The notes beneath the pieces are model-generated. The model made no database searches and was not told the DNA's origin. It saw only the letters and a list, made by a program, of their open reading frames with translations. Made by a program: the position numbers and the translations under genes. A stretch of DNA of 64,000 nt, taken from Paraburkholderia sprentiae WSM5005. GTDB lineage: Bacteria; Pseudomonadota; Gammaproteobacteria; Burkholderiales; Burkholderiaceae. The stretch is from NCBI RefSeq assembly GCF_001865575.2, contig NZ_CP017561.2:2728001-2792000 (forward strand). The letters are read 5' to 3'. Below, in pieces: positions 8,200-43,206 of this stretch (positions within the stretch are counted from its first letter, which is position 1; the number at the start of each line of letters is the position of its first letter).

Positions 8200-8531
8200 T
8201 CAGATCTCCCATCTTGCATGATCCGCGAACTCCGCCGGACAAGTCAGGCGGTACAGCGCGCTCGCAGAGTCAAGACATCGCACGCCCTCTGGTTGGGCAG
8301 CAGCGACGTCGGGAAAACGGCAACAAATACCGTTTGGGGAGCCATCTCAAAAACAGCCCTTACATACTCGATGTATGCCGGGCTCGGCTCCCACGCGAAA
8401 AACCAGCGTTGGTGGACGCTGGTGAGGGACTTCAATCGTGCCGTTCTACTCTGCAGGGGAGTGAAACGGTGACGCGTTGCGTCTAAGGACCGGGGGCGAC
8501 GGTAAAAAGGTTAACGCCCTGCAACCAATGT
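8200..8531 (-). ncRNA. candidate structured 5' leader or small RNA upstream of the lytic transglycosylase
   Basis: No convincing gene here. Read on the minus strand, four stem-loops follow each other: CCGTT/AACGG plus ACTC/GAGT (8441-8469); CCAGCGT/ACGCTGG (8403-8422), followed by TTTTT like an intrinsic terminator; a nested hairpin with three helices GGGAGCC/GGCTCCC, AGCCC/GGGCT and TACAT/ATGTA (8337-8392); and AAACGG/CCGTTT (8315-8335). A good promoter sits just upstream of them. Either the transglycosylase mRNA has a leader of about 330 nt, or a small RNA of roughly 130 nt ends near 8398. I do not recognise a known riboswitch class. The structures were found by eye only. Confidence 0.35.
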
Positions 8532-8537
8532 GGACGG

Positions 8538-8566
8538 ATTCTATGCACGGTTTTATAGATCGTCAA
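8538..8566 (-). promoter_or_regulatory. sigma-70-type promoter reading toward the lytic transglycosylase
   Basis: On the minus strand TTGACG (8566-8561) and TAGAAT (8543-8538) are separated by exactly 17 bases, a near-consensus pair in an AT-rich patch (8525-8610). TATAGA-type boxes recur around it at 8539-8544, 8553-8560, 8569-8576 and 8583-8590; TTATAGAT and ATCTATAA form a perfect inverted repeat across the promoter, possibly a regulator site. Confidence 0.6.
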
Positions 8567-8815
8567 CACTATAGAATGCAACATCTATAACTATTTGTAA
8601 TTATGAACAGTGTTCAGTCGCCCGAAAAGCGCGCGCGGTGCGCGTTTTGACCGATCCCACCCTGGCCGTCTGCGATCGACCATTTGGTCGTTCTGCGTGC
8701 GGTAGCCAACGCAGGTAAAATCGACAATCGTTTTGCTGCGCCAGACAGGGACCGCCGCGGTCCCGCCTGGGCTTCCGCTCCTATGCGCCGTGCATGCGGC
8801 CTTGAACCGTCACAG

Positions 8816-40090: not shown

Positions 40091-41122
40091 ATGGCATTTA
40101 ACGTCACGCTCCGGCTAAGCGGCCGGCAGTTTCAGGTAGAACAGGACGAACCGGTGCTCTCCGCAGCCCTGCGGCAAGGCATCGGCTTGCCGTACGGCTG
40201 CAAGAACGGCGCGTGCGGTTCGTGCAAGGGCACGGTCGTGAGCGGCGAGGTCGAGCAGCGCGCGCACTCGTCGTCGGCGCTGTCGAACGACGAAAAGACA
40301 CGTGGCATGGCGCTGCTGTGCTGCGCGACCGCGTGCTCCGATCTCGAAGTCGACGTCCGCGAAGTCGCCGGCGTCGGCGACGTGCAGGTCAAGAAGCTGC
40401 CGTGCCGTGTGAACGCGATCGAGCGCAAGGCCGACGACGTGATCGTCGTGAAGCTGCAACTGCCGGCCAACGAACGTCTGCAATATCTGGCCGGCCAGTA
40501 CCTGGAGTTCATCCTGAAGGACGGCAAGCGCCGCAGCTATTCGATGGCGAACGCGCCGCACGTCGAAGGCCCGATCGAGTTGCACATTCGCCACATGCCT
40601 GGCGGCGCCTTCACCGATCACGTGTTCAACACGATGAAGGAGCGCGACATCCTCCGCTTCGAAGCGCCGCTCGGCACGTTTTTCCTGCGCGAAGACGCCG
40701 ACAAGCCGATCGTGCTGCTCGCGTCGGGCACCGGCTTCGCGCCGCTGAAGGCGATCGTCGAGCATGCGGTGTTCAAGAACATCACGCGGCCCATGACGCT
40801 CTACTGGGGCGCGCGCCGCAAGAAAGACCTGTATCTGCTCGAACTCGCCGAACAATGGGCGCGCGAGATTCCGAACTTCAAGTTCGTGCCGGTGCTCTCC
40901 GAGCCCGATGCGAGCGACGCGTGGACCGGTCGCACGGGCTTCGTGCATCGCGCGGTGATCGAAGATCTGCCCGATCTGTCAGCCTACCAGGTGTATGCGT
41001 GCGGCGCGCCGGTGATGGTCGAATCGGCGCTGCGCGACTTCACGCAGCATCACCAGCTGCCGGAAGACGAGTTCTATGCGGACTCGTTCACGAGCGCGGC
41101 CGATCTCGCGAACGCGGTCTGA
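40091..41122 (+). CDS. 2Fe-2S ferredoxin/flavin reductase (CDP-6-deoxy-delta-3,4-glucoseen reductase-like)
   Basis: 343 residues. N-terminal plant-type ferredoxin with Cys37, Cys42, Cys45 in YGCKNGACGSCKG and the fourth ligand at 77 or 78, then an FNR-type FAD domain (RSYSMAN near 153) and NAD(P)H domain (ASGTGFAPLKAI and YACGAPVM). The layout matches AscD/RfbI and phenol or naphthalene oxygenase reductases; in beta-proteobacteria the gene is usually labelled CDP-6-deoxy-delta-3,4-glucoseen reductase, although no dideoxysugar genes are here. Its real electron acceptor is unknown. Confidence 0.85.
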   Translation: MAFNVTLRLSGRQFQVEQDEPVLSAALRQGIGLPYGCKNGACGSCKGTVVSGEVEQRAHSSSALSNDEKTRGMALLCCATACSDLEVDVREVAGVGDVQVKKLPCRVNAIERKADDVIVVKLQLPANERLQYLAGQYLEFILKDGKRRSYSMANAPHVEGPIELHIRHMPGGAFTDHVFNTMKERDILRFEAPLGTFFLREDADKPIVLLASGTGFAPLKAIVEHAVFKNITRPMTLYWGARRKKDLYLLELAEQWAREIPNFKFVPVLSEPDASDAWTGRTGFVHRAVIEDLPDLSAYQVYACGAPVMVESALRDFTQHHQLPEDEFYADSFTSAADLANAV

Positions 41123-41264
41123 TCGCACGGCGGCAAATGGCCGGCCCGCGCGCTTGACCGAGCGCTCGCGCGGGCCGTTTGCGCGGGCCGTTCGCGCCGA
41201 ACATGTCAGCTTCCCGGCATGCCGGCAAAAATCGCCTCGATGCGGCGCCAGTGCAAATTCATGG

Positions 41265-41294
41265 TTTACACCAGCGCTTTTCTTATCGTATTCT
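41265..41294 (+). promoter_or_regulatory. promoter of the argD leader
   Basis: TTTACA (41265-41270) and TATTCT (41289-41294) with an 18-base spacer. Initiation would fall near 41301, right at the ATG of the leader ORF, so the leader may be translated from a leaderless transcript. Confidence 0.5.
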
Positions 41295-41301
41295 TTCGCG
41301 C

Positions 41302-41352
41302 ATGAACCGCATCCAGTCCGAACTCCGACGTCGCCGCTCGCCGCTCCCCTAG
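41302..41352 (+). CDS. candidate arginine leader peptide upstream of argD
   Basis: Sixteen codons encode MNRIQSELRRRRSPLP, with four consecutive arginine codons (9-12: CGA CGT CGC CGC) and a further Arg at 3. It begins at the predicted transcription start and is followed after 67 bases by an intrinsic terminator, all ahead of a gene of arginine biosynthesis. This is the layout of a ribosome-mediated attenuator in which Arg starvation would stall the ribosome on the Arg run. There is no ribosome site, consistent with a leaderless start. Confidence 0.5.
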   Translation: MNRIQSELRRRRSPLP

Positions 41353-41419
41353 GGACGCCGCTGGCTTCGTCACGGACTCGCGCCACACCAAAATCTGGGC
41401 GCAAACTGTTCGAATCATG

Positions 41420-41450
41420 AAAGCCACGGCATGCCGTGGCTTTTCTGTTT
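41420..41450 (+). terminator. Rho-independent terminator in the argD leader (attenuator candidate)
   Basis: Ten-bp stem AAAGCCACGG/CCGTGGCTTT with loop CATG followed by TCTGTTTT, 79 bases before argD. The upstream segment TGGCTT (41362-41367) can pair with AAGCCA in the 5' arm, which would disrupt this hairpin, as an antiterminator does. Confidence 0.85.
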
Positions 41451-41528
41451 TCCGGCCGCCGTTTTATTGGCTAAACCGTCACCGTTTCTTTACCCTGCTC
41501 TCATCCTTTTGCCTTGGAGCCCGCCGTC

Positions 41529-42713
41529 ATGAATTTCAATGAGTATCCAATCGATTCGCTGATGTACATCACGAACCGGCCCGAAATCGTTTTCACGCAT
41601 GGCAAAGGCTCGTGGATCTACGACAGCAACGGCAAGCGCTACCTGGATTTCATTCAGGGCTGGGCGGTCAACAGCCTCGGCCACTGCAACGACGGCATGA
41701 TTGAAGCGCTGAACCAGCAGGCCGGGCTGCTGATCAACCCGTCGCCGGCGTTCTATAACGAGCCGATGGCGAAGCTCGCGGGTCTGCTCACGCGACACAG
41801 CTGCTTCGACAAGGTGTTCTTCGCGAACAGCGGCGCCGAGGCGAACGAAGGCGCGATCAAGCTCGCGCGCAAATGGGGCAGGAAGTTCAAGGACGGCGCG
41901 TTCGAGATCATCACGTTCGACCACAGCTTCCACGGCCGCACGCTCGCGACGATGTCGGCCAGCGGCAAGCCGGGCTGGGACACGATCTACGCGCCGCAAG
42001 TGCCGGGCTTCCCGAAGGCGGACCTGAACGACATCGCGTCGGTGGAAAGGCTGATCAACGCGAAGACCGTCGCGGTGATGCTCGAGCCGATCCAGGGCGA
42101 AGGCGGCGTGATCCCCGCGACCCGCGAGTTCATGCAGCAACTGCGCGAGCTGACGAAAAAACACAACATTCTGCTGATCGTCGATGAAGTGCAAAGCGGC
42201 TGCGGGCGCGCCGGCACGCTGTTCGCGTATCAGCTGTCGGGCATCGAGCCGGACATCATGACCCTCGGCAAGGGCATTGGCGGCGGCGTGCCGCTCGCGG
42301 CGCTGCTGTCGAAAGCCGAAATCGCGGTGTTCGAAGCGGGCGACCAGGGCGGCACCTACAACGGCAATCCGCTGATGACCGCGGTCGGCTATTCGGTGAT
42401 CTCGCAGCTGACGGCACCAGGCTTTCTCGAAGGTGTGCGCTCGCGCGGCGACTATCTGCGCACGAAGCTGCTCGAGCTGTCCGAGGAACGCGGCTTCAAG
42501 GGCGAGCGCGGCGAGGGTCTGCTGCGCGCACTGCTGCTCGGCAAGGACATCGGCAACCAGATCGTCGAGAAGGCGCGCGACATGCAACCCGACGGCGTGC
42601 TGTTGAACGCCGCGCGTCCGAATCTGCTGCGCTTCATGCCGGCGCTCAACGTGACGACCGCGGAGATCGACCAGATGCTGGCGATGCTGCGCTCGGTTCT
42701 CGACTCGCTGTAA
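41529..42713 (+). CDS. argD: acetylornithine aminotransferase
   Basis: 394 residues, class III aminotransferase. The PLP lysine is K248 in [17 protein letters not shown] (100-107), FHGRT (134-138) and [10 protein letters not shown] (218-227) are the other family motifs. It transfers the amino group from glutamate to N-acetylglutamate semialdehyde in arginine synthesis, and close relatives also act on succinyl-diaminopimelate. GGAG lies 11 bases before the ATG. A GNAT acetyltransferase gene follows after 19 bases, then a terminator. The leader upstream carries an Arg-rich peptide and a terminator. Confidence 0.88.
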
Positions 42714-42732: not shown

Positions 42733-43206
42733 ATGACGACGAACACGACGCTGTCGATCCGCCGCTTCGACGCGAGCGATACCGACGCGGTGATCGCTCT
42801 ATGGCAGGCGGTGTTTCCCGAGTATCACGACGTGACGAGACCGCAGCGCAATCCGCGTCTGTCGATCGCGAACAAGCTCGCGACGCAACCGGAGCTGTTC
42901 TTCCTCGCGCTGCTCGATGGGCGAATCGTCGGCACCGTGATGGGCGGCTATGACGGACACCGCGGCTGGCTGTATTCGCTCGCGGTCGATGCATCGCTGC
43001 GACGTCATGGCATCGGCACGCGACTCGTCGCGCACGTCGAGAGCGAGTTGACCCGGCGTGGTTGTCCGAAGCTGAATCTGCAGGTGCTATCGTCAGCGAC
43101 GCCTGAAGTGCGCGCGTTCTACGATGCGCTCGGCTATCGCGCCGATGCGGTGATCAGCCTCGGCAAGCGGCTCGGCGAATACGCGGACGCGGCCCCGGCG
43201 GGTTGA
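42733..43206 (+). CDS. GNAT family acetyltransferase (YpeA-like)
   Basis: 157 residues, a single GNAT domain with the acetyl-CoA loop LRRHGIGTRLVAHVE near 95-109 and the VRAFYDALGYR segment near 133-143. It resembles YpeA-type proteins of unknown substrate. It lies 19 bases after argD and shares its terminator, so the two are probably transcribed together. Confidence 0.85.
   Translation: MTTNTTLSIRRFDASDTDAVIALWQAVFPEYHDVTRPQRNPRLSIANKLATQPELFFLALLDGRIVGTVMGGYDGHRGWLYSLAVDASLRRHGIGTRLVAHVESELTRRGCPKLNLQVLSSATPEVRAFYDALGYRADAVISLGKRLGEYADAAPAG

Follow-up and report, generated by a model that had tools for sequence, protein, structure and literature searches.

A candidate leaderless, arginine-codon transcription attenuator ahead of argD in Paraburkholderia sprentiae and its relatives among the Burkholderiales

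Transcription attenuation by a translated leader is known in its classic form from the trp, his, leu, phe and thr leaders of gamma-proteobacteria. The leader that precedes argD in Paraburkholderia sprentiae WSM5005 shares with them a short ORF carrying codons for the end product, alternative 1:2, 2:3 and 3:4 hairpins, an intrinsic terminator and a biosynthetic gene downstream. Unlike them, it uses arginine, has a predicted leaderless start and precedes argD, not a large operon. In T-box leaders, the tRNA binds the leader directly; arginine T-boxes have no leader peptide, unlike the argD leader, which in turn has no T-box match. RNA-level control of arginine genes by such T-boxes has been described (PMC1262725). 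The argD leader most resembles the leaderless trpL attenuator of S. meliloti, with arginine replacing tryptophan (PMC7298713). The trpL leader is a leaderless 14-amino-acid ORF whose ATG is the 5' end of the transcript, and attenuation there releases the sRNA rnTrpL; transcription repression is not part of the control described for this operon, and functions in trans have been demonstrated for rnTrpL and peTrpL (PMC7298713). Release of an sRNA by attenuation would thus be common to the two systems, as would the leaderless start, which for argD is a prediction.

Two further systems are related in part. The leaderless poly-cysteine short ORFs of mycobacteria are attenuators that regulate translation of the genes downstream (Canestrari 2020, cited in PMC9031893); they share with the argD leader, which is predicted to be leaderless as well, contiguous codons for one residue, cysteine in the former and arginine in the latter. 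In the speF leader of Salmonella, consecutive Arg codons in orf34 sense low arginine by ribosome pausing (PMC6386406). In contrast to the argD leader, orf34 acts through Rho-dependent termination, ribosome-site masking and RNase G, serves polyamine synthesis and has two Arg codons (PMC6386406). No transcription attenuator of the classic design for arginine was found described in the literature searched, and the main texts of an attenuation survey (PMC2965389) and of a paper on Herbaspirillum sRNAs (PMC7011215) contain neither argD nor arginine. The first-pass annotation of this DNA had suggested that an arginine attenuator ahead of argD could be undescribed. This holds for the mechanism, of which no description was found in the titles and abstracts searched of the open-licence literature (an earlier notice elsewhere is possible), and does not hold for the RNA, which is known as BcKCsr7 (RF02884), also named nc5U30 or RIT34. 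Within the literature searched, the new part looks to be the mechanism alone. Such an attenuator would add arginine to the amino acids sensed by classic attenuation, and would provide a role for an RNA now listed as an sRNA without characterisation.

The window, a stretch of 64,000 nucleotides of the P. sprentiae genome (contig NZ_CP017561.2, positions 2,728,001 to 2,792,000), carries on its + strand a ferredoxin-type reductase gene, the leader, argD and a GNAT gene, in this order. For the upstream reductase, no NCBIfam model scored above its own cut-off. The promoter (41265-41294) consists of a -35 element TTTACA (41265-41270), an 18-nt spacer and a -10 element TATTCT (41289-41294), and it is the sole sigma-70-like site that the promoter scan found in 40800-42000, where 0.2 were expected. 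The leader ATG lies at 41302, 7 nt past the -10 element. It opens a 16-codon ORF, MNRIQSELRRRRSPLP*, predicted to be leaderless (41302-41352, stop codon TAG at 41350-41352), in which CGA CGT CGC CGC at 41326-41337 specify four consecutive arginines. The intrinsic terminator (3:4) occupies 41419-41449, with a stem of 11 pairs (41419-41444), the loop CATG and a T-rich tail. The argD gene, for acetylornithine transaminase (41529-42713; NF002985, 802 bits), starts 84 nt past the end of the terminator stem and is preceded by the ribosome site GGAG at 41516-41519. These elements, namely the promoter, the 16-codon ORF, the run of four Arg codons, the terminator and argD, had been named in the first-pass annotation, and the scans, the ORF list and NF002985 confirm that all of them are present at the locus. 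The promoter and terminator scans by themselves are weak evidence, with 1.3 chance terminators expected in the scanned region. The RF02884 match covers 41288-41446 on the + strand, with 147.2 bits against a gathering score of 59. BcKCsr7 alone passes the Rfam gathering scores at the leader, and no riboswitch or T-box family matches there.

Folding divides the leader RNA of the window into four segments on the + strand. Segment 1 (41315-41336), which takes in the first three Arg codons and nearly all of the fourth, is the predicted protector half that pairs with segment 2 when no ribosome is present. Segment 2, GCCGCTGGCTTCGTCA (41357-41372), is the predicted 5' half of the antiterminator, as indicated by folding and co-variation. 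Segment 3, TGAAAGCCACGGC (41418-41430), overlaps the 5' arm of the terminator, and in the predicted folds its partner is either segment 2 (antiterminator) or segment 4 (terminator). The alternative pairing of TGGCTT with AAGCCA that had been proposed earlier is present; it is too short, as the predicted fold pairs GCCG(C)UGGCUU(CG)UCA at 41357-41372 with UGAAAGCCACGGC at 41418-41430. The leader RNA as a whole folds better than all 200 of its 200 shuffles (z -3.4).

We propose that ribosome-mediated transcription attenuation operates in the argD leader, which would sense charged arginyl-tRNA through a leaderless leader peptide, and we give this reading a probability of about 0.86. Comparison and folding support the leader ORF with its Arg run, their geometry, the competition between pairings, the co-variation and the gene context. 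The exact start site, leaderless translation, stalling and the arginine response are inferred, as follows. Transcription would start on the A of the leader ATG, and the ribosome would load directly on the 5'-terminal AUG. When arginine is plentiful, the ribosome would translate the Arg codons and continue to the stop codon, where it would cover segment 2 or would have passed it, so that the terminator 3:4 could form and an RNA of about 145 nt, BcKCsr7, would be released. When arginyl-tRNA is scarce, the ribosome would stall on the Arg run and mask segment 1, leaving segment 2 to pair with segment 3; with 2:3 formed, RNA polymerase would read on into argD. If no ribosome is present, segments 1 and 2 would pair, and termination would be the default. 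A leader of this seemingly leaderless kind would be a compact system for the coupling of a ribosome on a 5'-terminal AUG to RNA polymerase.

The start of the transcript can be compared with published data on the RNA. RIT34, which is the same as nc5U30 and Bc_KC_sr7, is listed as expressed from chromosome 1, 2,967,641-2,967,787 (147 nt), in region IG1_2967543 (PMC10987360); we assume that these coordinates refer to B. cenocepacia J2315. Table 2 of that paper describes BcKCsr7 as an sRNA without functional characterisation, and within the open-licence literature the names BcKCsr7, nc5U30 and RIT34 were each found in PMC10987360 alone. Short transcripts produced by processing or attenuation have been reported for 82 5'UTRs (Sass 2017, PMC5688073); the nc5U names presumably refer to these, and argD is not named in the main text of that paper. 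In B. cenocepacia, where the short RNA is reported to be expressed, transcripts that start exactly at the start codon have been reported for 72 genes. Eleven of 21 Burkholderia loci have 147 nt between the leader ATG and the end of the terminator stem (range 142-151). Between the stop codon of the upstream gene and the leader ATG, 12 loci were tried and 10 could be measured, four of which have 98 nt (range 94-101); loci L143 and L150 have both values. If the RNA starts at the A of the ATG, and if the IG number is, as we assume, the first intergenic base, 147 nt and 98 nt reproduce the published start and end. This agreement of coordinates in close relatives of J2315 suggests, as support and not as proof, a start at the leader ATG. 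Of 95 family leaders, 94 have 6-8 nt between the -10 element and the ATG, the search having allowed 4-9 nt. The leader is predicted to be leaderless, with the transcript starting at the A of the ATG at 41302.

The leader is widely conserved in the family. RF02884 matches occur in 183 of 299 sampled family genomes, with 134 above the cut-off, and order-wide in 8 of 150 genomes, six of these being weak matches away from argD. Among the first 98 loci, 86 include argD, and in 85 of these the upstream reductase is present as well; the 12 loci without argD are six weak places, each fetched twice. Thirteen weak Rfam loci away from argD were inspected. Twelve of them have no RRR ORF and appear by eye to be gene-end terminators or unrelated stretches; the counts rest on these 12, the thirteenth (L116) having been mis-cut. 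After removal of the duplicate loci L095 and L096, a terminator of the GCCA(C/T)G type was recognised in 102 of the 111 family loci examined in detail, and 95 of these 102 leaders have an RRR ORF at the leaderless position. Retention of the terminator with loss of the Arg ORF, which the first-pass annotation had named as the outcome that would speak against it, is thus confined to 7 of the 102 leaders: four from one genus (g94) have a run shortened to RRSFR or RRSVR, one has an N-masked start, one has ACG in place of ATG and one has lost the ORF. In addition to these seven, leader L066 reads RRCR, its terminator having been missed by the search pattern. In three genomes of the genus g3, which are smaller (about 4 Mb), the terminator is kept, and the leader ORF is lost, changed from ATG to ACG or shortened (L104, L078 and L092); these leaders may possibly form a decay series.

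Most of the family loci were found through the Rfam RNA model, which contains the Arg run, and the count above is biased accordingly. Two sets were therefore drawn independently of the run. One consists of 12 ArgD orthologs whose genomes the RNA model did not match, namely those with at least 64% identity out of 18 ArgD matches; four have both the terminator and an RRR ORF, and eight have neither. The other consists of 80 named loci picked by the ArgD protein, the closest that were retained out of 586 (Burkholderia, Paraburkholderia, Caballeronia and Trinickia; ArgD 86-99% identical to the query). All 80 have an ORF with an Arg run at the leaderless position before the terminator, RRRR in 79 and RRR in one.

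Beyond the family, ArgD orthologs were found at the cut-off used in 63 of 399 genomes of the order, and 64 of the 65 places were examined, an interrupted second argD copy in G518 being left out. G658 and G518 each have two argD matches in one genome, and a stop codon interrupts one of the G518 copies. For L221 and L260, freshly cut stretches of the same places (L292 and L293) were used. An upstream terminator within 220 nt was present in 35 of the 64 argD copies, and none was recognised by the finder in the other 29. Among the 35 terminator-bearing copies, 23 have an ATG-initiated ORF of at most 45 codons with RRR, against 1.22 expected from shuffles; 22 is the safer count, as the RRR of L288 (family f5) sits outside the leaderless ORF and is probably due to chance. 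RRR was seen on the reverse strand in 5 of 35 and in 2 of the 29 upstream regions without a terminator, and three-residue runs of other residues in the same 35 copies amount to five for Ala, one for Leu and one for Asp.

The RRR leaders belong to families f1, f3, f8, f11, f15, f21, f24 and f35. The attenuator class extends to families where no leader of argD was detected by the Rfam model. The terminator sequences are wholly different between families (for example AAGCCACGG, GAAGCCGCGCC, AGGCCGCAC and AAGGCCACAGA), and the Arg ORF is therefore not carried along by one conserved stretch. Arg-rich leaders without RRR, chosen by eye, add seven from f5 and one each from f20, f39 and f24. The leaders of f5 and f20 (L284-L291) encode long Arg-rich peptides with no run of three at the leaderless position, such as RRTRAAARARSGRGA, which suggests that their control codons are spread out. 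None of the 11 argD copies of f4 has such a leader, and the terminator is absent in 6 of 7 copies of f21, in all four of f30 and in all six of genus g2 (f1).

The position of segment 2 relative to the ORF fits the proposed mechanism. A ribosome covers about 12-15 nt ahead of its A site. Segment 2 mostly lies 22-42 nt past the first Arg codon (R1). Of 31 order-panel leaders, 30 have its start between R1+18 and R1+42 (the search began at the lower of these bounds, and one leader sits at it) and the remaining one at +54; in the family leaders it starts between +23 and +42. With this footprint, a ribosome stalled on the run would at most just reach segment 2. It never starts more than 8 nt past the stop codon, so that a ribosome finishing the peptide covers segment 2 or has passed it. 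The terminator arm lies at least 23 nt past the stop codon throughout the family set; among the 31 order-panel leaders, 29 have a distance of 20 nt or more, and L249 (13 nt) and L220 (15 nt) are borderline. Because of this distance, a ribosome finishing the peptide should in most cases not block the terminator.

The competing hairpins were tested on 37 representatives hand-picked from the 95 leaders for folding, shuffle and swap tests. Stalling was simulated by masking the RNA upstream of R1+17 and halting transcription before the 3' arm of the terminator. At least 6 nt of R1+24 to +44 then pair with the 5' arm in 36 of the 37, against 7.0 when the intervening RNA is shuffled; if pairing of the arm is counted wherever it occurs upstream, the contrast is weaker (35 of 37, with 15.5 expected). 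Folding without a ribosome, which has no shuffle control, predicts that segment 2 pairs with segment 1, and hence with the Arg codons, over the arm in 33 of the 37, the 1:2 pairing not being predicted in L048, L092, L124 and L128. With the ribosome at the stop codon and the 3' arm not yet transcribed, 6-8 nt of the arm still pair upstream in 12 of 37, and the terminator must therefore out-compete this upstream pairing. In the predicted folds, the 2:3 pairing is exclusive of the terminator, as in an antiterminator. The terminator and 2:3 have about the same strength at equilibrium, and the model therefore needs co-transcriptional kinetics.

Co-variation of segment 2 with the arm supports this pairing. 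Across 15 family representatives, permuted arms fit segment 2 less well than its own arm does (p 0.0003), and the order-wide permutation gave p 0.00018 for 20 genera and p 0.0002 for 11 families. The order-wide set comprises 31 of the 35 terminator-bearing copies, with L238 (second of its genus) and L256, L266 and L278 (f4, no Arg ORF) left out; ten leaders without a leaderless RRR entered it with an Arg-rich ORF chosen by eye. A decoy of the same length from upstream of the ATG beats segment 2 in 4 of 20 cases. Clear own pairings are GUGCGGCC with GGCCGCAC in L225, UCUGUG with CACAGA in L276 and UGGGU with GCUCA in L056. In the swap test, 13 of 37 representatives showed no advantage of the own arm over the average swapped arm, and the window leader is one of them (-17.7 vs -18.4). 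For L049 and L124 the fit does not exceed that of shuffles, 117 and 158 of 200, respectively, being as good or better, and the fit of segment 2 to the arm in the window leader beats 200 of 200 shuffles. The reading of the locus as an Arg-codon transcription attenuator, made earlier from the DNA letters, is supported by relatives that keep the Arg run and by alternative hairpins that co-vary.

CGA, CGT and CGC, which are read by one tRNA in most bacteria, make up 69 of the 70 run codons in 21 order-panel runs. CGA accounts for 22 of the 70, compared with 2.3% of the Arg codons in argD across 80 named loci, and the run opens with it in 94 of 95 family leaders. Third positions take 24 of the 37 changes in the run, a result of little weight as the set is conditioned on RRR; in the family, this codon-position test is not clean because most leaders were found with the Rfam model that contains the run.

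The same observations bear on other explanations of the locus. BcKCsr7 could be an independent sRNA that acts in trans and has a terminator of its own, with argD transcribed separately and the small ORF incidental. It is filed in Rfam as a gene of the sRNA type and is discussed as an sRNA in two reviews; however, every fetched match above the Rfam cut-off sits ahead of argD, the Arg run is kept while the remaining peptide and the terminator sequence diverge between families, and segment 2 co-varies with the arm. The gap between terminator and argD is just 27-57 nt in genera g101 and g102, which leaves little room for another argD promoter in these two genera. Conservation and co-variation led us to reject a free sRNA with an incidental ORF as the main reading, and we consider it very improbable. 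It is just as improbable that the leader peptide acts by translation coupling or ribosome-site masking and not by transcription termination. The leaderless poly-cysteine ORFs of mycobacteria provide a published precedent for an ORF of the same kind, with a run of control codons for cysteine. Against this stand the T-tailed intrinsic terminator located between the ORF and the gene in the 102 of 111 family loci and the pairing of segment 2 with the 5' arm of that terminator.

Nascent chains rich in arginine can slow the ribosome, and leaders of the SpeFL type respond to ornithine. Both points would suit a leader that binds a metabolite or a protein, either as a riboswitch or as an arginine or ornithine arrest peptide, and does not sense charged tRNA, as would the arginine response of the Salmonella orf34 leader (PMC6386406). 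We regard this as the least probable of the alternatives, since no riboswitch or T-box family matches at the locus and since an arrest peptide should depend on the residues around the run, whereas these vary between families (e.g., MHCTAATAGSRRRRLC and METQFTNALRRRIMTSG) and the Arg run alone recurs.

Arginine synthesis is a textbook repressor-controlled pathway, yet ArgR (PF01316) was not detected in the 21 genomes searched, P. sprentiae and 20 relatives; the same search detected it in 9 of 14 controls. An Arg-codon attenuator would fill this gap. ArgR has been described as highly conserved in gamma-proteobacteria and absent in other classes (PMC5343134). A broader proposal is that leaderless Arg attenuators replace ArgR across the Burkholderiales and that, in addition, the released BcKCsr7 RNA, the Arg-run peptide or both have gained a function in trans; the latter part would be by analogy with rnTrpL and peTrpL of Sinorhizobium, and we consider the combined proposal speculative and rather unlikely. 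Among argD and five further arginine or carbamoyl-phosphate genes of P. sprentiae, argD alone has the leader, with no RRR ORF found upstream of argG, argJ, argC, argF or carA. The only argC match reported in P. sprentiae (L229, C1:3385177-3386007) is below the family cut-off and has a stop codon inside. As this match starts at profile position 60, the true upstream region of argC may have been missed.

Two other features of the window were recorded. Downstream of argD, a GNAT acetyltransferase gene (42733-43206, + strand; NF002959 PRK03624, 188.6 bits) starts 19 nt past the end of argD, and because the two are only 19 nt apart, it may be co-transcribed with argD under the same leader. At 8396-8600 (+ strand), the window has a second Rfam sRNA match, to the Burkholderia sRNA Bp1_738 (RF02422, 178.8 bits).
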